35,771 bases of DNA, taken from the NCBI GenBank assembly GCA_025355325.1, contig JANXZX010000117.1:1-35771 (forward strand), in the 5' to 3' direction. This DNA comes from Geobacteraceae bacterium (lineage in GTDB: Bacteria > Desulfobacterota > Desulfuromonadia > Geobacterales > Pseudopelobacteraceae). This document shows, piece by piece, positions 12,328 to 33,297 of the stretch. Position 1 is the stretch's first letter, and the number at the start of each line of letters is the position of its first letter. The position numbers and the translations under genes are program-made. The notes beneath the pieces are model-generated. The model had not been told where the DNA came from. It worked only from the letters and a program-made list of their open reading frames with translations, and made no database searches.

Positions 12328-12879
12328 ATGACACTGGAACTGTTTATCATAACCTACGGTTATTTAGCGCTTTTCGTGGGCTGTTTGCTGGAGGGTGGCA
12401 CTGTTGTAGTAATTGCCGGCGCCCTCTCCCACCAGGGGTATCTGCGGCTTGAGTGGGTTATCGGCATCACCTTTTGCTGTGCCTTCGGTGCAGATCAGTT
12501 CTTTTATCAGGTAGGAAAGCGGAACGGCCCAAAAGTGATTGGCCGATTTCCGAAGCTTGAGCCCAAAATCAACCGGGTGCGACTTTTTCTGGTTACCTGG
12601 CAGATTCTGGCCATATTGGGGTTCCGGTTTATCTACGGCATGCGCACCATCACTCCAGTCGTCATCGGCATGAGTGGCTTCAAGCCCCGCTCTTTTGTTC
12701 CGCTCAATCTCTGCAGCACGTTACTCTGGTCCTGTACAATTGCGGTTTTTGGCTACTTCTTTGGCCACCTGATCCAGGACACACTCACCACATTTGGCAG
12801 GTACGCATTAGCGGTTTTGGCAGCTGGCACCGTCTTCATAGTGCTCTATCGCCATTATCGGCGACCGCCGGGAACTTGA
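12328..12879 (+). CDS. DedA-family inner-membrane protein
   Basis: The 183-residue polytopic protein belongs to the DedA/SNARE-associated family, some of which act as lipid scramblases or flippases affecting membrane potential and envelope integrity. The conserved features are an N-terminal reentrant-type helix with LLEGGTVVVIAGALSHQGYL (acidic residue E22), AFGADQFFYQVGKRNG, and RFIYGMRTITPVVIGMSGF (the FRFxxGxRxxxP motif with conserved arginines). Two C-terminal helices follow (about 128-147 and 158-176). It is transcribed away from the toxin-antitoxin pair and converges on the phosphorylase gene, leaving 29 bases between them. Confidence 0.9.
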   Translation: MTLELFIITYGYLALFVGCLLEGGTVVVIAGALSHQGYLRLEWVIGITFCCAFGADQFFYQVGKRNGPKVIGRFPKLEPKINRVRLFLVTWQILAILGFRFIYGMRTITPVVIGMSGFKPRSFVPLNLCSTLLWSCTIAVFGYFFGHLIQDTLTTFGRYALAVLAAGTVFIVLYRHYRRPPGT

Positions 12880-12908
12880 GGAGTTCAGGCAAGTGCGTGC
12901 CGTTGAAT

Positions 12909-15419
12909 TTACAGCTCCACACTCCCAATCTCCATCGGCTTCAAATGCCAGATATCATTGTTATAATCGGTGATTGTCCGGTCGGTGGAAAACTTGCCGC
13001 TACAGGCTGTGTTGAGGATGCTCATACGGATCCAGCGTTCGCGGTCCTGATATGCAACAGCCACACGCTGCTGGGCATCGACAAAACTGCGGAAATCTGC
13101 AGCCACCATCCATGGATCATGCGGTGAACAGATCGCGTTAATGATCGGGTCAAAGAGACCGGGCTCGAACAGATTGAAGTGGCCGCAGCGGAGAAGATTC
13201 ATGACTCCCTGCAAGTCTGTGTCACAGGCAATCACGGCATTCGGATCATAATTGCCGCGCAATGCATCAACTTCTTCACTCGTCAGGCCGAACATGAAGA
13301 AATTATCCTCACCTACCTCTTCGCGGATTTCTATATTCGCGCCATCAAGGGTTCCGATAGTGATCGCCCCGTTCATCATAAACTTCATATTGCCGGTTCC
13401 TGAAGCCTCCTTGCCCGCAGTGGACAACTGTTCCGACAGATCGGTGCCGGGGCAGATCACCTCCATCGCGGTGACACTGTAGTTGGGCAGAAACGCCACT
13501 TTGAGCTTGTCGCCGACAGCCGGGTCGGCGTTTACTACTCCGGCAACATTATTGATCAGTGTGATGATAAGTTTCGCCATCGCATAACCTGGCGCCGCCT
13601 TCCCGCCGATCAGCACACAGCGATCAGTCCACCCTGCCGTGTCGCCACGCTTGATTCGATCATACAGATGAATGACATGCAGTATATTGAGCAGCTGGCG
13701 CTTATACTCATGAATGCGCTTTACCTGGACATCGAACAATCCTTCCGGGTTGAAATCCACTTTGCATTTGGCGTGAACAAGAGCCGAAAGCTGCGCCTTG
13801 TTGGCCTGTTTTACATCATGCCATTGCTGCCGGAATTCCCGATCATCGGCAAGTGCGGCAATCCGGCTGATCTGTTGCAGGTCGGAAATCCACCCTTCAC
13901 CGATTTTTTCGTTCACCAGCCGGCTTAAACCGGGGTTACAGCGGGCAATCCAGCGTCGCGGGGTTACACCGTTGGTCTTGTTGTTGAACTTCTGCGGCCA
14001 GAGTTCGTAAAAATCACGGAACAATCCTTGAATCAGCAACTGAGAGTGGAGGGCAGCCACGCCGTTAACGGAAAAACTCCCGACGATGGCCAGATATGCC
14101 ATCCGGATCTGCGGAACGTCACCCTCTTCAATGATCGACATACGGCGCATCCGGTCAATATCACCGGGCCAGTGACTGGAGACTTCCGCAATGAACCGGG
14201 CGTTGATCTCCAGAATTATCTCCAGAATCCGGGGCAGAAGCTGGCCGAAAAGCGGCAGCGGCCATTTTTCCAGCGCTTCGGGCAGCAGCGTATGGTTCGT
14301 ATATGCCATCGTCCGGCAGGTGATCCCCCAGGCCGTATCCCAGCTCATTCCCTGATCGTCCATCAGAATGCGCATCAGTTCCGGCACGGCACAGCTCGGA
14401 TGAGTGTCGTTCAGCTGAAAACAGTTTTGGGCGGCAAAATCGGTGAAATCACCCTTACGCACCATCACCCATCGATCAACAACATCCTGCAGACTTGCTG
14501 AAGCGAGGAAATACTGCTGACGCAATCTCAGTACCTTGCCGTTTTCGCTGGCATCGTTCGGGTACAGCACCATCGTGATATTTTCGGCTTCATTCTTGGT
14601 AGCAACCGATTCCGCATAGTCTCCTGCGTTGAATTCGCCAAGATCAAAGGCATCGGTAGCTGCCGCTTTCCAGAGTCGCAGGGTATTGACCGTGCCGTTG
14701 CGATAACCGGGAATCGGAATATCGTAAGGGACGGCCAGAACATCGCGGCTGTCAACCCAGCGGACCCGCAGTTCGCCATTTTCGGCATGAAACTTTTCAC
14801 TGCGTCCGCCGAACCTCACCCGCTGGGTATATTCAGGCCGCTCCTGCTCCCACGGGTTGCCGTCGCGCAGCCAGTGATCAGGCTCCTCAATCTGGCGGCC
14901 ATTTACGATGCGCTGACGGAACATGCCGTACTCATAGCGGATACCATACCCCATAACCGGCAGTTGCAGCGTGGCACAACTGTCCAGAAAACAGGCTGCC
15001 AGCCGCCCAAGTCCGCCGTTGCCGAGTCCGGCATCGATCTCCGCTTCTGCCAGATCCTCCAGGTTGATGCCGAGTTCATGCATCGCCTGTGTCGCGGCAT
15101 CGGTAATGCCGAGATTCAGCATGGCATTACCAAGAGTTCGTCCCATCAGAAACTCCAGCGAAAGGTAATAGCCCCGCTTGCATTGAGATTCGATGTAGGT
15201 GTAGCGGGTCTTTTTCCAGCGTTCCATCAGGCGGTCGCGCACCGTCAACGCCAGTGCCTTGTAAAAATATTTGACCGAATGGCAGTACTTGTTCTGACCG
15301 AGAGTATAGGTAAAATATCGCCGGTAATCGTAAATAAGGCCGGCAGCGTCCGGCGCCAGCGGAGGGAGCTCCGTCAGGCCGGGCGAAGTGATTATGGTGC
15401 GCTTCTTTTTATAAACCAT
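12909..15419 (-). CDS. glgP: Glycogen/alpha-glucan phosphorylase
   Basis: This 836-residue, PLP-dependent enzyme releases glucose 1-phosphate from glycogen or maltodextrin. Conserved segments are AEIDAGLGNGGLGRLAACFLDS, GYGIRYEYGMFRQ, QLNDTHPSCAVPELMRIL, ARFIAEV, NGVAALHS, KTNGVTPRRWIARCNPGLS, VQVKRIHEYKRQLLN and the PLP-lysine region GTGNMKFMMNGAITIGTLDGAN (split here only for description). The length is normal. GGAA precedes the ATG. It lies 123 bp downstream of the aminotransferase gene on the same strand. No other glycogen genes are in the window. Confidence 0.96.
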   Translation of the reverse strand: MVYKKKRTIITSPGLTELPPLAPDAAGLIYDYRRYFTYTLGQNKYCHSVKYFYKALALTVRDRLMERWKKTRYTYIESQCKRGYYLSLEFLMGRTLGNAMLNLGITDAATQAMHELGINLEDLAEAEIDAGLGNGGLGRLAACFLDSCATLQLPVMGYGIRYEYGMFRQRIVNGRQIEEPDHWLRDGNPWEQERPEYTQRVRFGGRSEKFHAENGELRVRWVDSRDVLAVPYDIPIPGYRNGTVNTLRLWKAAATDAFDLGEFNAGDYAESVATKNEAENITMVLYPNDASENGKVLRLRQQYFLASASLQDVVDRWVMVRKGDFTDFAAQNCFQLNDTHPSCAVPELMRILMDDQGMSWDTAWGITCRTMAYTNHTLLPEALEKWPLPLFGQLLPRILEIILEINARFIAEVSSHWPGDIDRMRRMSIIEEGDVPQIRMAYLAIVGSFSVNGVAALHSQLLIQGLFRDFYELWPQKFNNKTNGVTPRRWIARCNPGLSRLVNEKIGEGWISDLQQISRIAALADDREFRQQWHDVKQANKAQLSALVHAKCKVDFNPEGLFDVQVKRIHEYKRQLLNILHVIHLYDRIKRGDTAGWTDRCVLIGGKAAPGYAMAKLIITLINNVAGVVNADPAVGDKLKVAFLPNYSVTAMEVICPGTDLSEQLSTAGKEASGTGNMKFMMNGAITIGTLDGANIEIREEVGEDNFFMFGLTSEEVDALRGNYDPNAVIACDTDLQGVMNLLRCGHFNLFEPGLFDPIINAICSPHDPWMVAADFRSFVDAQQRVAVAYQDRERWIRMSILNTACSGKFSTDRTITDYNNDIWHLKPMEIGSVEL

Positions 15420-25192: not shown

Positions 25193-25990
25193 GTGCAATC
25201 TATGATGATAGGAATTACTTTCCTTGGTGTAGGATCAGCATTCACAACACAAGAATACTATCAGTCTAACATTTTGATTACTACTGCAAACGGCAAAAGC
25301 CTACTCTTGGATTGTGGATCTGATATAAGGTTCTCAATAAGAGAAATCAAATCTCGTAAAGAATATTCCGACATAGTAATTGACGCTGTTTATATCTCCC
25401 ATTGTCATTCTGACCATGTTGGCGGCTTGGAGTTTCTTGCAGTCACCAACTATTTTAGTGACAGGCGAGGTAAACTCAAACTTTTTGCTGAAGAAAATCT
25501 TCTGTGGAGTCTGTGGAACGAGACGCTAAAAGGCTTGATCAACTGCATTCAGGGCAAATCCATGCAGATTGACGATTATTTTATATGCAATCCTCTTGGG
25601 GACAATTCTTCCTTTAAATGGGAAGGGCTCTCTTTCACTCTGGTGAAGATGCCGCACATTGCATACGATGGCGGGACGAAATACAGCTACGGGCTTCTCA
25701 TTGGTAACAGCAGCACCGGTAAACACACCGTTTTTATCAGCACCGACACCCAATTCCAGCCGGACACCCTATCTCTCCTGGCACCCGAAGTCGAAGTAAT
25801 CTTCCACGATTGCGAGACCACCCCTTTTAAAACCGGCGTTCACGCTCACTACGAAGAGTTGCTATCCCTCCCGGTCGCTATTCGAAATAAAATGTGGCTC
25901 TACCACTATAATCCTGACCCAGCGTATGATCCGGTAACCGATGGTTTCAAGGGATTTGTTGCGAAAGGGCAAGACTTCCTTTTCGACTAG
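25193..25990 (+). CDS. MBL-fold metallo-hydrolase, RNase Z/phosphodiesterase-like
   Basis: The 265-residue protein has the metallo-beta-lactamase fold: TFLGVGSAF at the N-terminus, metal motif SHCHSDHVGG (about 69-78), a later His in KMPHIAYDGG, an Asp in FISTDTQF, HDCET, VHAHYEEL and a final LYHYNP. The pattern fits the RNase Z/class II phosphodiesterase branch, which acts on phosphodiester bonds. Because it precedes a nucleotide cyclase gene by 38 bp, a cyclic-nucleotide phosphodiesterase role is attractive, but this is inference. The frame starts with GTG at 25193, very close to AGGAAG; ATG at 25202 or 25205 gives better spacing. Confidence 0.85.
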   Translation: MQSMMIGITFLGVGSAFTTQEYYQSNILITTANGKSLLLDCGSDIRFSIREIKSRKEYSDIVIDAVYISHCHSDHVGGLEFLAVTNYFSDRRGKLKLFAEENLLWSLWNETLKGLINCIQGKSMQIDDYFICNPLGDNSSFKWEGLSFTLVKMPHIAYDGGTKYSYGLLIGNSSTGKHTVFISTDTQFQPDTLSLLAPEVEVIFHDCETTPFKTGVHAHYEELLSLPVAIRNKMWLYHYNPDPAYDPVTDGFKGFVAKGQDFLFD

Positions 25991-26028
25991 TTGCACCAAC
26001 AACTATATTGGCAATGGAGGACAATTTC

Positions 26029-28017
26029 ATGACTACCGAATCGATTTCTTCAAATAATGACGATGTAAAATATCTACTCGGTCACATACTTGTTGATAAA
26101 AAGATTCTGAATGAAAATGATTTGAATGAAGCGCTTGCTGAGCAAAAGAAATCATCCAGGCCCTTGGGAGAGATTCTTGTAAAGCGGGGCCTGGTTTCCG
26201 AGCAGGATATTATAGATGCTTTTACAATGCAGACTTCCCAGCGAGTGGTGCCGGATCAGGACAAATCCCGTCTCGGGCGTTTGAGGAGCTTGCGCATACC
26301 AATAAGTATCAAGCTGGCTATGCTGATCACAACTCTCATTGTCGGCATTATGATAATTGCAAGTGTCTTTTTCTATTACAGCCAGAAGGAAGAATTCATT
26401 GCGCAATCAATGCGTTTCGGCGGCGCAATAGCTGGCAATCTGTCTCACAATTCTTCCGTTGCTCTTCTGGAAAATGATGAAGCCTCGCTGAATATCCTGC
26501 TGGAAGAAGTTTCCAAAATGCAGGACATCACTTATGTAATGATTCTTGACAAGGCTGGAATAATAAGAGCTCATTCAGATGTCCAGAAGATAGATAAACC
26601 TTACAGGCCAATTGTCAATCCGGAAACGATCTCAAAAACCGAGAAAAATGAAATATCAAAATACAAGATAGGCCACAAAGAGATACTCGATTTTTCTACA
26701 CCGGTCATGTTTAACAATACTTTTCTCGGCACCATTCACATCGGAATTTCCCTCGATTCACTCAATAAAAAGATAGAGCGCTTCGGAATTATGGTGTTGA
26801 TCCTTACCACCGCTCTGACAGCTGTCGGCATCTGGATTTCATTCTTTATTAGCGGCAACTTTTCCACGCCTATTATTGACCTGGTACGAGGTACCAATGA
26901 AATAAAGCAGGGGAATTTTTCATACCGCTCAAAAATAAGTTACAATGATGAGTTGGGAGATCTTACGCTTGCCTTCAATGATATGGCTGATGGTTTGCGC
27001 AAAAAGGAAATAATTCAAAACGCTTTTGGTCAGTATGTTAATCATGAGATTGTGGACTTGATTTTAAAAAACCCTGACAGTTTTCTCGGCGGCGAAAACA
27101 GGCTGATGACCATTATGATGACCGATTTGCGCGGATTTACAGCCATAAGCGAAACGTTGCCGGCCAAAGATGTTCTTAAAATTGTCAATATTTATCTGGA
27201 GACAATGACTGAGGTCGTCATGAAGTACAATGGCACTATTATCGAGTTCATTGGCGATGCAATTCTTGCCGTTTTCGGGGCTCCTATTCTTCGTGAGGAC
27301 GATGCAAAAAGAGCTGTGGCCTGTGCGATTGAAATGCAAAATGCCATGATTGACGTTAATGCCCGGTGCCGCGAATTGGGGTATCCTGAGGTCGAACAGG
27401 GGATTGGCCTTAATACAGGAGAGTCGGTTGTTGGCAGTATAGGGTCGGACAAGAAGACCAAATATGGCCTTGTCGGAAGAAATGTTAATCTCACCGGACG
27501 TATTGAATCATATTCCGTCGGAGGACAGATTCTTATTTCAGAAAGCACCGCCAAGGCTTGTGGGGCGATACTCAAAATTCATAATACCCTGGAGGTTATG
27601 CCGAAGGGGGTGAAAAAACCGATCTCCCTCTACGATGTTACGGGGATAGAGGGTGAATTCAACGTATTTATTCCAGTCAAAGCAAAGGTAAAACTCATAG
27701 AACTTAAAAAAGGCATGCCGATCGTGTTTTTTGCCCTTGAAGGAAAGTATGCGACAAAAACATGCTATGAGGGGATAGTAACCCACCTGAACGCAAACGA
27801 GGCTCTCATTCAATCTGAAACGATACCTGAGGCCCTCTCTAATATCAAATTCACCATAACCACTGAAGATAACAAAGAAAATGCGCCGGATCTCTATGCC
27901 AAGGTTATGGAATCCCCTTCAAGCGGTCCATCGACATTCAAGGTTTATTTTACGTCTGTCCCGTACGAAGCCCGGGATCATCTGAATAAGGTTTTGCAGG
28001 AAAGCAGCAAGAGCTGA
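26029..28017 (+). CDS. Membrane class III nucleotide cyclase with MshEN domain
   Basis: The 662-residue protein has an MshEN-type domain (about 15-70: two motifs of the form LGxxLVxxxxLxxxxLxxALxxQ, the second ending DAFTMQ), a membrane helix (about 94-116), an extracytoplasmic sensor (about 118-250), a second helix (about 252-274), HAMP (about 275-328) and a class III cyclase domain (about 355-535). Metal aspartates are D366 (MTDLRGF) and D410 (FIGDAILAVFG); transition-state residues are N487 and R491. The base-specifying positions are E406 and G480, the glutamate being guanylate-cyclase-like. A C-terminal domain (about 545-655) looks PilZ-like. ATG at 26029 is chosen for its GGAGG site. Confidence 0.93.
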   Translation: MTTESISSNNDDVKYLLGHILVDKKILNENDLNEALAEQKKSSRPLGEILVKRGLVSEQDIIDAFTMQTSQRVVPDQDKSRLGRLRSLRIPISIKLAMLITTLIVGIMIIASVFFYYSQKEEFIAQSMRFGGAIAGNLSHNSSVALLENDEASLNILLEEVSKMQDITYVMILDKAGIIRAHSDVQKIDKPYRPIVNPETISKTEKNEISKYKIGHKEILDFSTPVMFNNTFLGTIHIGISLDSLNKKIERFGIMVLILTTALTAVGIWISFFISGNFSTPIIDLVRGTNEIKQGNFSYRSKISYNDELGDLTLAFNDMADGLRKKEIIQNAFGQYVNHEIVDLILKNPDSFLGGENRLMTIMMTDLRGFTAISETLPAKDVLKIVNIYLETMTEVVMKYNGTIIEFIGDAILAVFGAPILREDDAKRAVACAIEMQNAMIDVNARCRELGYPEVEQGIGLNTGESVVGSIGSDKKTKYGLVGRNVNLTGRIESYSVGGQILISESTAKACGAILKIHNTLEVMPKGVKKPISLYDVTGIEGEFNVFIPVKAKVKLIELKKGMPIVFFALEGKYATKTCYEGIVTHLNANEALIQSETIPEALSNIKFTITTEDNKENAPDLYAKVMESPSSGPSTFKVYFTSVPYEARDHLNKVLQESSKS

Positions 28018-28034: not shown

Positions 28035-28460
28035 TTATCTTGCATTTAATGCAGATTGAGCATTCTTTAGAGATAACATCAGCACTATGACCATGGAAAA
28101 GTCCAGTGAAGCCGCAATCAGGATCATCTCCGGTTTAGCGGCTAAATGGGCATTGAAGAGGAGAAACAACACGGCAAGAATTTTAGTCAGAATCATAGCT
28201 ATAACCTGAGGTAGACTACGCTTCAGATCAGCGAGAGGCGCAAGATAAAAGAAACTCATGCATAAAAGGAATAATCCAGATTGCTTGACAAAAAAGTAAT
28301 TTTCTATACCTGCCTTGAAAAACAGCCGGTAAAACAATTCCGTAAAAAAATAAATAAAGGTACCCAGAATCAGGCTGTGCATCCCGATCAAGAAGACACT
28401 CAGCGCGAGAAGCTGTAATTTGACCGGAGCCGAGAAGATTTTCCGTAGTATCTGTCGCAA
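28035..28460 (-). CDS. Small four-helix membrane protein of unknown function
   Basis: I recognise no named family. The 141-residue product has four predicted membrane helices (about 15-40, 57-76, 84-102 and 109-130), with a basic N-terminus (MRQILRKIFSAPVK). It converges with the cyclase gene, leaving 17 bases between stops, and its start is next to the second MITE copy. ATG is at 28460, with GGAAGG about ten bases upstream. It is probably a real gene, given four consistent hydrophobic segments. Confidence 0.7.
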   Translation of the reverse strand: MRQILRKIFSAPVKLQLLALSVFLIGMHSLILGTFIYFFTELFYRLFFKAGIENYFFVKQSGLFLLCMSFFYLAPLADLKRSLPQVIAMILTKILAVLFLLFNAHLAAKPEMILIAASLDFSMVIVLMLSLKNAQSALNAR

Positions 28461-28685: not shown

Positions 28686-31265
28686 CTACAAAATGATCAA
28701 AAACACCAGTATCACAAAAACCATAACCGCCTGATGACCTCGATACACCGCCCGCGAAAATTCATATTTATCAGCCATTACTTTCAGCATGAGAAGTGAA
28801 GCAATCCCTCCCGCCAGCGTGATCAGTGGCAATAGCGCCTTCAATGTTCCCAAATTTGGTATTAGCGCATCCGGCAGGGTTAGGGAGCCAAAGGAAAATA
28901 AATTGACCATCCAGGGAAGTAGATTGTGGCCATTATAGATGAACTCATGGAGATATATGTTGAAGAATCCGGCAAAACCGAGAAATTGATAGGTGTACCC
29001 TGCATGGATGAAATGCCGTTGCCCTTCCTTTTTAAAGGGCAAGCCCGAAGCCGCGAGCATCAGAACAACAAATGCTATCAGGATCGGCAGCCCTTCGACA
29101 AGACCGGAAATGGGAGAGTGCGACAGGATTGGTTCGCGAAGGACAAATGTCCGGTATAGTTCTGACTGTGGCAGTTTTACAGCCAATACTGAGGCGGTCA
29201 GAAGAACTGCAAATGTGGCTCCGCTCAGTTCCCACCTTTGTTTATTGAGTAATTCCTGCCATGGATAGCGGGCATCAATCCTGACTGAACGATGCTGACA
29301 ACTCTTCATGCAGGCAAAACAGAGAACGCAATCTTTCGTGCTGGATGCGGCAGAGGGATGAATCCCCATCGGACAGTTGCCTTCTCTGACGCAATCATGG
29401 GTTTGACACTGGCTGGTACAGACATTGCTGTTACTGCCGAGCTCAAGCATCGAAATTGTTGAATACTGAGCCACCATTCGCCCCAACGGGCATATGTGTT
29501 TACACCAGGAACGCTTGCCAAAGAGGATGGTCGTGAACACAGCCCCGGATAATATAGTCACGAGAAGGACTCCGGTGGCATGTGCCTTGTTGAACATATT
29601 AAAGAGGTGTTCTGTCTGGAGAATAAGAATGAAACCAACGACACCAATCCAGATGCCGTACTTGATCAACACCCCCGGCACCGACCGGAATCCCTTTCGG
29701 AATTTACCGACATACTCTCCCACTACCGGCAGAGGACAATAGCCGCACCAACTCCGGGCAGAGAAAAAGATTGAAAAAATAAGAAAAGGCCACCATATCG
29801 CCCATACGACAAGGTTCGCCAGATTATGTTCCGGTGGACCGACAAGGGTATAGATGATCAGGAGCAGGATAAACGGAACGGTGACCAATTTGAGCCCGGC
29901 CGGAATCAACCGGTGGCTGAGCGTATCACGCACAGAAGAGAACTTGAGAATGTTGAATTTCCCCGTAGTGGAAAACGTCGGAAGATTCAGGAATATCTGA
30001 CTTACGTTAATGACAGGTACTTCGGCAATTACAACAGCCCGTTCAATTACCTGGCGTAACTCGTCGACGTTTAACGGCCAATCATGGTCTACAATTAGAT
30101 TCATGGCCTCTTTGGAGAAACCTGTAACGTGTCGGCTGAATTTTTCATTGAACTTGCTGACGAAGTATTCTGCTATTACCGGGATGTCCTTTTTTCTTTC
30201 CCGTAATGGTTTGAGTTGGAGAATTTCTACGCCTGCCAGGTCCAGCAACTCCTTCTCGATTCCTCCCTCTTCTTTCAGTTTCTCCAAAGGTTGAGCGGTA
30301 GTTGCAATCAGGCGGACTTTACTGGGTATCTGCCGATTTCCACCACTGGGAGTAAAGACCCCGGACCGGTAAAACTGAACAAGGAGCCGTTGTACACGAT
30401 GAGAGAGGAAATCAATGTTTTCCAGAATGATGGAGCCTCCATCGGCGAGTTCCAAATATCCGCGTCTTATTCCCTTGGCATAACTTCCCGCATCAGCGCT
30501 ATGACCGAACAATGCAGATTCCTGAGCAATTTCAAAATGCAGCACATCCTTTTCATTGTTTCCTTCTCCGCTGTCACGCTGGACAGGAGGGGGATTTGCA
30601 CAATCAAGGCGATACAGTGGTCGATTCCCGACCGGACCATGCATATGAATCAGACGAGCGGCAAGGTCTTTCCCGGTTCCCCTCTCACCAAGAATCAGTA
30701 CATTTCCTTCAGCTGTTGCGAGCTTGGCAATTGCAGTATTGGTATCGGTGGTCCACTTCGTCTTGCCGATAAAATGGTCGATATCTGGGTCCTGCCGGGA
30801 TAAAAACTTGGCAATTATCTCTTCTCGTTCCAGACTTGCGTACTGCTGCCGCACTGTGCTTCTCGCCTTTCTCTGCATGAGCAGGCGAAGAAGGTTCTCA
30901 TTCAATTTCGGGAAGGTTGTGACCAATTCCAGAAAAACTTCCTGACTGAGTTCGGCAAGACGAACATCCGTCAAAGCTTTAACGTTGGCGGAACGCGGCT
31001 CTCCGGTCATGAGCGCTATCTCGCCGAAGACATCACCCGGTTTCTGAGTTGTAAGAACATATTCAACTTTTTCGTCGTTAATCAGGGTTACGTTTACCGT
31101 CCCGCTGAGGATCATGAACATGGAATATCCGGGGTCACCGCGGTAGATAATAGTGGTTCCGGCAGGAAAGTGTTTTTCGGCAAGGCGGGGGATAACGGCG
31201 GAAATTGTATCGAGAGGTAAATCTTCGAAAATTCCTATTGCTTGGAGGTCATTGGAGGTAATCAT
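28686..31265 (-). CDS. Cyclic-nucleotide-binding/AAA+/membrane polyferredoxin fusion
   Basis: The 859-residue protein joins three parts. Residues 12-130 form a cyclic-nucleotide-binding domain with an intact phosphate cassette (FGEIALMTGEPRSANV, Glu82 and Arg91). Residues about 163-410 resemble a sigma-54-activator AAA+ domain: Walker A GERGTGKD at 193-200. However, GAFTGA is replaced (near 255-262), Walker B DE reads EN (282-283) and the arginine-finger region is changed. The rest is a NosR/NapH-like membrane protein: helices from about 458, CxxCP at 507-511, CxxxCP at 588-593, Cys616/620/625/631 and Cys646/649/652/656 for two [4Fe-4S] clusters, then about five helices with several His. There is no DNA-binding domain. 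It follows the TPR lipoprotein gene by 56 bp. It is probably a ligand-gated electron-transfer or redox-sensing protein. Confidence 0.9.
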   Translation of the reverse strand: MITSNDLQAIGIFEDLPLDTISAVIPRLAEKHFPAGTTIIYRGDPGYSMFMILSGTVNVTLINDEKVEYVLTTQKPGDVFGEIALMTGEPRSANVKALTDVRLAELSQEVFLELVTTFPKLNENLLRLLMQRKARSTVRQQYASLEREEIIAKFLSRQDPDIDHFIGKTKWTTDTNTAIAKLATAEGNVLILGERGTGKDLAARLIHMHGPVGNRPLYRLDCANPPPVQRDSGEGNNEKDVLHFEIAQESALFGHSADAGSYAKGIRRGYLELADGGSIILENIDFLSHRVQRLLVQFYRSGVFTPSGGNRQIPSKVRLIATTAQPLEKLKEEGGIEKELLDLAGVEILQLKPLRERKKDIPVIAEYFVSKFNEKFSRHVTGFSKEAMNLIVDHDWPLNVDELRQVIERAVVIAEVPVINVSQIFLNLPTFSTTGKFNILKFSSVRDTLSHRLIPAGLKLVTVPFILLLIIYTLVGPPEHNLANLVVWAIWWPFLIFSIFFSARSWCGYCPLPVVGEYVGKFRKGFRSVPGVLIKYGIWIGVVGFILILQTEHLFNMFNKAHATGVLLVTILSGAVFTTILFGKRSWCKHICPLGRMVAQYSTISMLELGSNSNVCTSQCQTHDCVREGNCPMGIHPSAASSTKDCVLCFACMKSCQHRSVRIDARYPWQELLNKQRWELSGATFAVLLTASVLAVKLPQSELYRTFVLREPILSHSPISGLVEGLPILIAFVVLMLAASGLPFKKEGQRHFIHAGYTYQFLGFAGFFNIYLHEFIYNGHNLLPWMVNLFSFGSLTLPDALIPNLGTLKALLPLITLAGGIASLLMLKVMADKYEFSRAVYRGHQAVMVFVILVFLIIL

Positions 31266-31321: not shown

Positions 31322-32233
31322 TCAGTGTTGTTTTTTCAGCGCACTCTCGAGTTTATTTGCTTTCTCAATATACTCTTTTGCCTTCAGATGACCCGGTTCG
31401 AGCACAAGAACCTCGTTCCAGCGGGCGATTGCTTCCTTCAGTTTTTGTTCCCGGAAAAATTTCAGACCCAGTTTGTATAGCGTTTCCACCTGTTTCTTTT
31501 GTTCGCTGCGGCATTTCTTCTCATAATTATCAGTATCTTCGAACCCTTTTTTAACTTTTGTAAATGCATTCAAAGCTTTTGAGTATTCACCCTTTTTGTA
31601 GTGGGAAACGCCAATATTGTACCAGCAAAGATTGAGGTATCGCTGAATTTCCGGATCGTTGGGAGAGTGCGACCTTGCCTTCTGAAATTCGTTGATGGCT
31701 GCTGCATAGTCGCCATCTTCAAATAACGCAATTGCACGATCAGTGGCAGTCTCTTCAACCGTTTCTTCGTACGTTATTTTGACTTTTTCCTGGGTACGCG
31801 CAACCGATGCCTCACGTTTTGCCCTGACTTGCAGAGTAGCTTCGGAAGATTCCAGCTGAAGATTCTTTAATTCCTTCATTGCCTCCTGATAATCAGTTCG
31901 TATCCGGAGAGCGGCAAGAAATTCCTTTTTTGCCCCCTGCAGATTGGTCTGTTTCAAAGCCAGGCCCGCTTTGTAATGTTCCTCTGCCAATTTTGCCTGC
32001 TTTATGATCAGCTTGTTAAGTTTTTCCTTGGCCACACTATTATTGGGGTCAATAGTCAGAGCTATTTTTAATTCTTCTACCGCAATAGCAATATCCCCTT
32101 TTTCTTCCGACGCATCAGATTGTTTTATGGATTCATCGGGTTTCTGGGGCATTTCATGGGCGCAACCGCCTGCAATCAGCAAAATTGCGGCCAAAATAAG
32201 AACATAGGTTAATCTGATGAATTTGGAATGCAT
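31322..32233 (-). CDS. TPR-repeat lipoprotein
   Basis: The 303-residue protein has a lipoprotein signal peptide (lipobox IAGGC, lipidated Cys24) and TPR-like helical repeats in two blocks: about 35-130 (AVEELKIALTIDPNNSVAKEK; AKKEFLAALRIRTDYQEAMKE) and about 165-290 (AINEFQKARSHSPNDPEIQRY; ALNAFTKVKKGFEDTDNYEKK; AIARWNEVLVLEPGHLKAKEY). These usually hold protein partners together at the envelope. The ATG at 32233 with GGGG upstream is preferred to an earlier in-frame ATG at 32254, which lacks a site. It starts 17 bp after the deacetylase gene, so the two are in one operon and may serve one envelope or exopolysaccharide function. Confidence 0.88.
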   Translation of the reverse strand: MHSKFIRLTYVLILAAILLIAGGCAHEMPQKPDESIKQSDASEEKGDIAIAVEELKIALTIDPNNSVAKEKLNKLIIKQAKLAEEHYKAGLALKQTNLQGAKKEFLAALRIRTDYQEAMKELKNLQLESSEATLQVRAKREASVARTQEKVKITYEETVEETATDRAIALFEDGDYAAAINEFQKARSHSPNDPEIQRYLNLCWYNIGVSHYKKGEYSKALNAFTKVKKGFEDTDNYEKKCRSEQKKQVETLYKLGLKFFREQKLKEAIARWNEVLVLEPGHLKAKEYIEKANKLESALKKQH

Positions 32234-32250
32234 GTAGTCCCCTTTCACCA

Positions 32251-33282
32251 TCAATCCAGTTGAGACGTTTCGAGCAACTTTGAAAAATCTTCAATTTTTT
32301 CGCTGCGATAGACCATTGATCTGCTCAGCGAGTAATTATTGTAGAAAAATGCGTTACTTCCTTTTATGACCGTAAATCCGGCCAGATATCCGATGTCTTT
32401 CATCGAAGCGACAACCTTATCGTTAAAATTTCCATACGGGTACGCAAGAAAATGAGATTCTATTCCGGTTCTTTCCTTGATAATCCGCCGTGACTCCTTC
32501 AGCTCCCTGAAAATATTTTCTTCTGAAATTTTCGTCATATCAGCATGACTTACCGTGTGTGATTCAATTTCGATCACCCCTGATGCAGCCATTTCCTTAA
32601 GATCATCCCAAGAGAGAGTAATTGAACTCGGTTTTGACTTCATCAACTCGGTATAAACGAAAAGTACTGCGGAAAAGCCGTATTTTTTCAAGATCGGGTA
32701 GGCGATGGTTTTTGTTGACTTCCACCCATCATCAATGGTGATCAGTACAGATTTTTTTGGAGGACGTTGGCGGTACTCGATAAAATCATAAAATTGCCTG
32801 AGAGTTATGACGTTATAGCCATTATTTTTTAGATAGGCCATCTGTCGATCAAATGCTTCGGCAGAGATATCAATCTTGTTGGTACTCGTTTTAGGGCTGA
32901 ACTTGTGATAGCAGAGGACTGGAACGGTTTGGTAGCCTCCAGCCGTCAATCCCCCGGGATTAACCGGCTTAAGCGGTATCACGACAGTCTTGCCAACAGT
33001 TATAGGGGCATCTTTATTAAATTCCGAGATCAGGTAACCAAGTTTGCTATTGCCTAAATAGGTTTCCGCCAGTGACTCATAGCTGTCGGAAGCGCCCGCG
33101 ACGATAACGGCGTAATTTTCGGAAATACTTTTAGGTGCCTTTACGGACTGCGTATCGTCGAGTGGAGCAGCAGGTTGTGGTTGGCCGGGAGTGGTTGCGC
33201 ACCCCGCCGCTAACAACTGGATGAGAGCGAGAAGAATCAGTGACCAGGCAGGAAATTGTCCCAGGAATATTCGGATCGACAT
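32251..33282 (-). CDS. LysM-like/polysaccharide deacetylase lipoprotein
   Basis: The 343-residue protein has a lipobox (LAAGC, Cys28), a LysM-like segment (about 58-104, ending TVVIPLKP) and a NodB-type polysaccharide deacetylase domain (about 118-330). Catalytic motifs are TIDDGW (182-187, usual form TFDDG) and SHTVSH (241-246) with both metal histidines, followed by FLAYPYGNFND. It should remove acetyl groups from an N-acetylated glycan such as an exopolysaccharide or peptidoglycan; the substrate is unknown. ATG at 33282, with GAGAGG eight bases upstream, is chosen over an in-frame ATG at 33297. Confidence 0.92.
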   Translation of the reverse strand: MSIRIFLGQFPAWSLILLALIQLLAAGCATTPGQPQPAAPLDDTQSVKAPKSISENYAVIVAGASDSYESLAETYLGNSKLGYLISEFNKDAPITVGKTVVIPLKPVNPGGLTAGGYQTVPVLCYHKFSPKTSTNKIDISAEAFDRQMAYLKNNGYNVITLRQFYDFIEYRQRPPKKSVLITIDDGWKSTKTIAYPILKKYGFSAVLFVYTELMKSKPSSITLSWDDLKEMAASGVIEIESHTVSHADMTKISEENIFRELKESRRIIKERTGIESHFLAYPYGNFNDKVVASMKDIGYLAGFTVIKGSNAFFYNNYSLSRSMVYRSEKIEDFSKLLETSQLD

Positions 33283-33297
33283 TGAGTAACCTCTCAA

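Follow-up and report, generated by a model that had tools for sequence, protein, structure and literature searches.

A Geobacteraceae protein joining a cyclic-nucleotide-binding domain, a degenerate AAA+ domain and a membrane polyferredoxin: an architecture that FesM probably shares

What is the function of a protein that carries, on a single chain, a cyclic-nucleotide-binding (CNB) domain, an AAA+ domain of the sigma-54-activator type and a membrane-embedded polyferredoxin? The question is raised by an open reading frame (ORF) at positions 28686-31265 on the minus strand of contig JANXZX010000117.1 of a Geobacteraceae bacterium (assembly GCA_025355325.1), within a stretch of 35,771 nucleotides that was analysed as a whole and is called the window here. 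The ORF starts with ATG and encodes one protein of 859 residues, which a first-pass annotation of the sequence had described as a three-part protein with a degenerate AAA+ centre and a role outside transcription. The features of the gene, with the evidence for each, are as follows.

28686..31265, minus strand: whole gene, CNB domain followed by a degenerate activator-type AAA+ domain and a membrane polyferredoxin, 859 residues (ORF list, Pfam, alignment)
30918..31175, minus strand: cyclic-nucleotide-binding domain, PF00027, residues 31-116 (Pfam)
30972..31031, minus strand: phosphate-binding cassette region, residues 79-98, Glu and Arg intact (alignment, motif table)
30798..30911, minus strand: long helix from the CNB domain to the AAA+ domain, residues 119-156 (AlphaFold2 model)
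29988..30770, minus strand: degenerate sigma-54-activator-type AAA+ domain with its lid, residues 166-426 (Pfam, Foldseek, motif table)
30669..30689, minus strand: Walker A motif GERGTGK, residues 193-199, retained (motif table)
30477..30494, minus strand: position of the GAFTGA loop, here DAGSYA, residues 258-263 (motif table)
30417..30422, minus strand: position of the Walker B Asp-Glu pair, here Glu-Asn, residues 282-283 (motif table)
28689..29957, minus strand: NapH-like membrane polyferredoxin, residues 437-859 (profile matches, model)
29733..29747, minus strand: CxxCP motif, residues 507-511, Cys 507 and 510 (alignment)
29487..29504, minus strand: CxxxCP motif, residues 588-593, Cys 588 and 592 (alignment)
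29370..29420, minus strand: cysteine set 1 (616, 620, 625, 631), one of two proposed [4Fe-4S] clusters (alignment)
29298..29330, minus strand: cysteine set 2 (646, 649, 652, 656), the other proposed [4Fe-4S] cluster (alignment)
28692..29228, minus strand: additional C-terminal membrane helices, residues 680-858, beyond the NapH profile match (profile match, models)

All three parts are recovered by Pfam above the curated cut-offs: cNMP_binding at residues 31-116 (79.9 bits against a cut-off of 27.5), Sigma54_activ_2 at 166-342, Sigma54_activat with its best stretch at 249-341 (89.5 bits), AAA_lid_14 at 355-426 (70.4 bits) and two stretches of Fer4_5, both situated in the hydrophobic C-terminal half. 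The same scan of the window protein returned no helix-turn-helix (HTH) or other DNA-binding family at E 0.01, nor an FMN-binding family. In an AlphaFold2 model built with 26 aligned relatives (mean predicted local distance difference test score, pLDDT, 81.5; predicted template-modelling score, pTM, 0.53), a single long helix joins the CNB to the AAA+ domain and the lid is followed by membrane helices, which hydropathy supports as well; with a pTM of 0.53, the relative placement of the domains is unreliable. The membrane part modelled alone with 44 sequences reaches a pLDDT of 88.1. Together with the motif alignment and the 12 conserved cysteines described below, the Pfam matches confirm the three-part organization, and the statement that a DNA-binding domain is lacking agrees with both the HTH result and the membrane helices found after the lid.

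The same order of domains recurs well beyond this genome. Searches of 395 genomes of the phylum were carried out with the whole protein and then with a polyferredoxin profile at a threshold of E 1e-60; the best two candidates per genome in the former and the best four in the latter were scored, and the counts are lower bounds. The profile matched at least 68 places in 59 genomes, among them at least 33 stand-alone polyferredoxins with open frames of 453-528 residues and seven longer ORFs, five of which have a YHS (L101, L102, L103), cytochrome c (L104) or cupredoxin (L106) domain in front and two nothing recognised. Long fusions, identified by open-frame length and follow-up, number at least 28 in 20 of the 395 genomes. 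An alignment of 26 rows, A1, comprises the window protein, 24 further loci of this genome set and L038, a Syntrophobacteraceae record; AAA_lid_14 and Fer4_5 match all 26 rows, Sigma54_activat 25 and cNMP_binding 24. Contig ends truncate two of the rows, L062 and L063, whose CNB domain is unreadable. FHA domains are added in front in two of the 26 members and GAF domains in two. A further two fusions (L109, L110), confirmed by Pfam after A1, entered the motif table and both trees, and L026, also cut at a contig end, was left out of A1, the motif table and the Pfam scan.

Within its own genome, the window gene is the only full-length match, and a scan of named genome contigs, made with one protein and exact peptide patterns, yielded L038 as its sole match; this Syntrophobacteraceae record of the Thermodesulfobacteriota is the nearest named relative. 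The even sampling covers one phylum, and other phyla are represented through plasmid records: a search of plasmid proteins with the polyferredoxin part gave eight records, two of them cyanobacterial, from Aulosira laxa NIES-50 (L125, annotated as "nitrogen assimilation regulatory protein") and Pseudanabaena galeata (L126, annotated as "cyclic nucleotide-binding domain-containing protein"). Both match the CNB, Sigma54_activat, AAA lid and Fer4_5 families and align with the window protein over its full length at 25% identity, sharing 12 of its 12 motif cysteines. The domain-architecture search suggested with the first-pass annotation thus finds the order CNB, AAA+, polyferredoxin again and again. 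This bears on the prospect, raised at the same time, of two genes fused by a sequencing or assembly error: continuous homologues in independent genomes, in the separately assembled Syntrophobacteraceae contig and in two named plasmid records argue against it, no support for it was found in these data, and its probability is negligible.

The AAA+ domain has kept its fold and lost the motifs of its class. Thirty fusions (the rows of A1, the two cyanobacterial members, L109 and L110) were aligned in a motif table with 19 other AAA+ proteins, which are by-products of the same searches and neighbours rather than a random sample, and four of which (at L030, L031, L032 and L058) were verified with Pfam as complete activators; for L063 the AAA+ motifs other than sensor II are unreadable. 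None of the 29 fusions readable at this site has the GAFTGA motif; all 19 comparison proteins do (13 exactly, six with one residue different). The window protein, with DAGSYA at this position, lacks the sigma-54 motif, the cyanobacterial L125 and L126 have no letters there in the alignment, and a faint trace of the loop persists in four fusions (GTFATA in L041, GAIPSV in L042, GSFSFA in L043 and GAIPSA in L044). The Walker B Asp-Glu pair occurs in 0 of 29 fusions against 19 of 19 comparison proteins, L039 retaining the Asp alone and the window protein having Glu-Asn. The sensor II arginine, a loss overlooked by the first-pass annotation, is present in 2 of 30 fusions against 19 of 19 comparison proteins, and the window protein reads LNVDEL in place of GNVREL. 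The arginine-finger region also appears altered when compared by eye (IEKELLDL in the window protein, FRRDLYFR in the comparison activator L030), as had been claimed together with the loss of GAFTGA and Walker B. The Walker A lysine is retained in 27 of 29 fusions (lost in L039 and L058) and is intact in the GERGTGK of the window protein. No fusion with intact GAFTGA and Walker B motifs, an outcome that would have spoken for action at sigma-54 promoters, was seen in this set.

Despite these losses, the structural relationship is clear: the AAA+ sequence matches an NtrC-family structure at 5e-38 and the Foldseek match to NtrC1 is 9.7e-20. Sigma-54 enhancer-binding proteins such as NtrC, PspF, FleQ and VpsR share the AAA+ fold, the lid and Walker A with the window protein, which differs from them by the absence of GAFTGA, the Walker B pair, the sensor II arginine and an HTH, and by the presence of a membrane tail. 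A further comparison is offered by L030, an activator from the same search in which a CNB domain is likewise joined to a sigma-54-type AAA+ domain; in contrast to the window protein, it keeps GAFTGA, the Walker B pair and an HTH_8 domain and has no ferredoxin match. In a maximum-likelihood tree of AAA+ domains, which is unrooted, a single branch with support 99/98 splits 29 fusions from the 19 other proteins, which suggests a single origin of the fusion AAA+ domains.

Is the motif-less domain then a relic? Between the window protein and L038, identity amounts to 62% in the CNB domain, 59% in the AAA+ domain, 56% in the polyferredoxin core and 37% in the C-terminal helices; nonsynonymous divergence (dN) is about 0.3 for each of the first three, with synonymous divergence (dS) above 2 and near saturation, and 0.59 for the C-terminal helices. 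The AAA+ domain is thus conserved as well as the neighbouring domains and has presumably been retained for use, since a useless relic would hardly be kept in this way. As regards transcription, the sigma-54 DNA-binding domain was detected in 4 of 14 control genomes and not in Synechococcus elongatus, the sole cyanobacterium among them; cyanobacteria in general are not known to have sigma-54. Motifs absent from all 29 readable fusions, the missing HTH and an architecture shared with cyanobacteria, whose control genome shows no sigma-54 DNA-binding domain, all fit the non-transcriptional role first proposed.

The 12 cysteines of the membrane part (those of CxxCP, of CxxxCP and of the two four-cysteine sets) are conserved without exception in the 26 aligned members, beyond chance, and the distribution of positive charges predicts all the cysteine loops to lie inside, on the same side as the CNB and AAA+ domains. 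The best-scoring named families are NapH models, then NosR, with scores far below the NapH cut-offs (TIGR02163, the best NCBIfam match, 35.0 against 213.05 bits; NF007013, 31.1 against 234 bits). NapH and NosR possess two Cys-Pro motifs in a membrane module and also two 4Fe-4S motifs (PMC5928378). The window protein resembles NapH, NosR and RdhC in having such a membrane module with two Cys-Pro motifs and differs from them in that the first of these is CxxCP and only the second CxxxCP, so that the pair of CX3CP motifs defining their module is not found, as well as by its extra C-terminal helices, its CNB-AAA+ part and the lack of a match to an FMN-binding family. The [4Fe-4S] clusters of NapH are on the cytosolic side (PMC5449189) and NapH is proposed to receive electrons from quinol (PMC5449189, PMC5928378). 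The fusions of the polyferredoxin module with cytochrome c or cupredoxin domains fit a role in electron transfer.

A precedent for the complete architecture appears to exist. FesM of Synechococcus sp. PCC 7002, the subject of a paper by Xu, Liu and Zhao (2005, Plant Physiol 138:1586), is a membrane protein reported to combine a domain that binds cAMP with an NtrC-like domain and with redox and 4Fe-4S motifs; loss of the cAMP-binding domain reportedly abolishes its function. All these features have counterparts in the window protein: an N-terminal CNB domain, an NtrC-like domain, and cysteine redox and 4Fe-4S motifs in a membrane protein. Its kinship with cyanobacterial proteins of the same domain order is direct in the case of the two plasmid members, which lack the cassette arginine that the window protein keeps; the comparison with FesM itself is one of reported domains. 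The domain order is therefore probably shared with FesM, and the first-pass assertion that no characterised protein has it is probably wrong. If FesM is as reported, the domain order is not new, but the non-transcriptional reading then agrees with the one characterised relative. The Thermodesulfobacteriota are not known to have photosystem I and are not known for photosynthesis. FesM is described as involved in photosystem I cyclic electron transfer, and its loss in Synechococcus PCC 7002 prevents mixotrophic growth on glycerol (PMC9003380).

These elements can be assembled into a tentative interpretation, to which we give slightly less than an even chance: the window protein would be a FesM-type electron-transfer protein, its activity set by a cytosolic signal (in the window's branch probably a cyclic nucleotide) that a non-hydrolysing AAA+ domain relays, thereby tuning electron transfer between quinone and ferredoxin. 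A cyclic nucleotide, perhaps produced by a neighbouring cyclase, would bind the CNB domain; the AAA+ part, which may bind ATP without hydrolysing it and may hold the protein as an oligomer, would transmit the change together with the long helix to the redox head; and the flow of electrons between quinone in the membrane and a soluble carrier in the cytosol, for instance ferredoxin, would rise or fall as a result, the partners in Thermodesulfobacteriota possibly being menaquinone and a soluble ferredoxin-like carrier. The gating by nucleotide, the partners and the direction of flow are all what we infer. The fusion protein would then be an effector adjusting electron flow and not a gene regulator. 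In a bolder form, which we regard as rather doubtful, a second messenger would directly switch a membrane electron carrier: a catalytically dead AAA+ domain of the sigma-54 type would read the cyclic nucleotide along with ATP, and ferredoxin-quinone transfer would be opened or closed while gene expression stayed as it was. With a sensor end that varies (CNB with or without the cassette, added FHA or GAF domains), the signal-gated electron gates would form a wide family that has FesM as one of its branches.

The nature of the signal depends on the CNB domain and on the genes next to the fusion, of which three are relevant.

26008..28017, plus strand: class III nucleotide cyclase with MshEN-type, sCache_3_2 and HAMP domains (Pfam, NCBIfam, alignment)
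25193..25990, plus strand: metallo-beta-lactamase-fold protein, Apyc1-like (Pfam PF23023 Anti-Pycsar Apyc1, 9.2e-26)
31322..32254, minus strand: tetratricopeptide repeat (TPR) protein gene, upstream of the fusion on the same strand and 56 bases from it (ORF list, Pfam)

The phosphate-binding cassette of the window protein, FGEIALMTGEPRSANV, contains the conserved Glu and Arg, and the cyclase is a possible source of the nucleotide. This enzyme retains both metal-binding Asp motifs (TDLRGFT and GDAILAVFG), and a homologous class III cyclase with sCache_3_2 and HAMP domains, whose N-terminal part aligns end to end with it, adjoins the fusion of L043; the two fusions beside homologous cyclases both have an intact cassette. 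The substrate-choosing positions of the window cyclase are unusual: it has Glu and Lys (IIEFIGD, TKYGLVG) where the L043 homologue has Lys and Glu (DKFIGD, MEYTVIG). At least one class III cyclase match is found in 19 of the 20 fusion genomes.

Several results weigh against the signal-tuned interpretation, above all against its nucleotide. By aligned columns, just six of the 28 members readable at this site keep the cassette Arg (window, L038, L039, L040, L043 and L053; L056 and L060, with an Arg one column further on, are scored as having lost it), and neither cyanobacterial member does, so that the family need not bind a cyclic nucleotide; such binding is a fair expectation, from sequence, for the window's branch and not for the family as a whole. 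A cyclase lies within 4 kb at 2 of 28 loci where 0.36 are expected (P for two or more, 0.05), barely above chance, and a third is situated about 7 kb from the fusion in genome G083 (P for three or more within 8 kb, 0.04). In genome G025, whose fusion L040 has an intact cassette, no class III cyclase family match was obtained at all, a result whose weighing lowered our confidence from an even chance to its present level. Clustering and annotation of neighbours across the loci gave no general operon partner that would name an electron donor or acceptor. The membrane part can, moreover, occur without a sensor: the tree of polyferredoxins joins nine stand-alone copies to L043 (100/99) amid the fusions, which are therefore not one clade there, and these copies have likely lost the sensor part, as judged from the tree; three other stand-alone copies (L057, L108, L127) fall, with weak support (73/93), on the side that holds the YHS, cytochrome and cupredoxin fusions. 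The notion of the AAA+ domain as a coupler fits the data, whereas cyclic-nucleotide gating of electron flow, its companion in the first-pass annotation, is only plausible in view of the 6 of 28 cassettes and of G025.

Could information flow in the opposite direction? The membrane Fe-S part would then be a sensor of quinone or ferredoxin redox state, with the CNB/AAA+ platform signalling it to a soluble partner such as a kinase, a cyclase or an ordinary activator. Signalling genes do stand beside several members: Ser/Thr kinases at L039, L045 and L060 (in the latter a CNB-kinase), with L062 and L063 added through clustering with that of L045, and a histidine kinase with a sigma-54 activator in line upstream at L058 and, by clustering, at L061. 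L045, L062 and L063 belong to one genome family (f15), however, and are not independent, and such neighbours are not conserved across the fusion family. The FHA or GAF domains in front of two members each can be cited for the same idea, but FHA, GAF and CNB domains are usually inputs and the output surface would be an AAA+ domain free of motifs; we hold this reversed scheme to be rather unlikely. The activator encoded directly upstream at L058 and L061 could also be invoked, along with the close match of the AAA+ fold to sigma-54 activators, for a protein that still regulates transcription, for example by forming mixed rings with true activators and poisoning them from the membrane. The lack of a DNA-binding domain, GAFTGA in 0 of 29 fusions and the existence of cyanobacterial members, with one cyanobacterial control genome devoid of the sigma-54 DNA-binding domain, make this very improbable.

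A maturation or assembly factor, in which the AAA+ domain would be a scaffold and the polyferredoxin would reduce the metal or Fe-S centres of another enzyme or load them, finds analogies in NosR, which is described as also acting in the activation of its reductase, and in NapG, whose membrane attachment needs NapH (PMC5928378); the YHS, cytochrome c and cupredoxin fusions of the membrane part, described above, can be cited in its favour as well. The AAA+ domain has, however, lost its hydrolysis motifs, and no client enzyme consistently adjoins the fusion in the neighbour survey; we consider this possibility improbable. The signal-tuned electron carrier remains the interpretation that we prefer. 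If it is true, a nucleotide second messenger would here control respiration-type electron transfer allosterically, which is rare, and a pseudo-AAA+ domain would act as the transducer. If the architecture of FesM is as reported, a protein known from cyanobacterial photosynthesis joins a family spread over a phylum that is not known for photosynthesis, and the comparison rules out ordinary sigma-54 activation by its NtrC-like part. In that case, the fusion family would provide a second setting for the roles of the CNB and NtrC-like parts and for possible direct cyclic-nucleotide control of electron flow.

The surroundings of the fusion genes present some additional features. In the window, the metallo-beta-lactamase-fold protein, which has an HCHSDH motif and is encoded on the cyclase strand, 17 bases ahead of the cyclase gene, is possibly a cyclic-nucleotide phosphodiesterase, judging by its family match, and the two could form a pair for cyclic-nucleotide breakdown and synthesis. 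Between the cyclase and the fusion gene, positions 28035-28460 encode a hydrophobic ORF of 141 residues with no Pfam or NCBIfam match at E 0.01. On the other side, the TPR gene may be in one operon with the fusion gene; it overlaps a polysaccharide-deacetylase (PgaB-like) gene by 4 bases, the two together spanning 31322-33297 and both running towards the fusion gene on the same strand. At L060, a protein kinase encoded close to the fusion gene (12561-13982) carries a CNB domain at its N-terminus, and at L042 (7904-8686) a gene with a DisA-type (DAC) nucleotide-binding domain lies downstream of the fusion gene on the same strand. The YHS fusions of L101, L102 and L103 are adjoined by a second related ORF (by clustering, with a Pfam check at L101). 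On the cyanobacterial plasmids, a cysteine synthase gene is located within 20 bases downstream of the fusion genes (L125, 6612-10303; L126, 6630-10267), and the surrounding regions encode a photosystem Q(B) protein, a Rieske-type protein and proteins that handle sulfur or thiols, with DsrE/rhodanese genes in the L126 region and a DsbA gene in that of L125; they are possibly sulfide-related islands.

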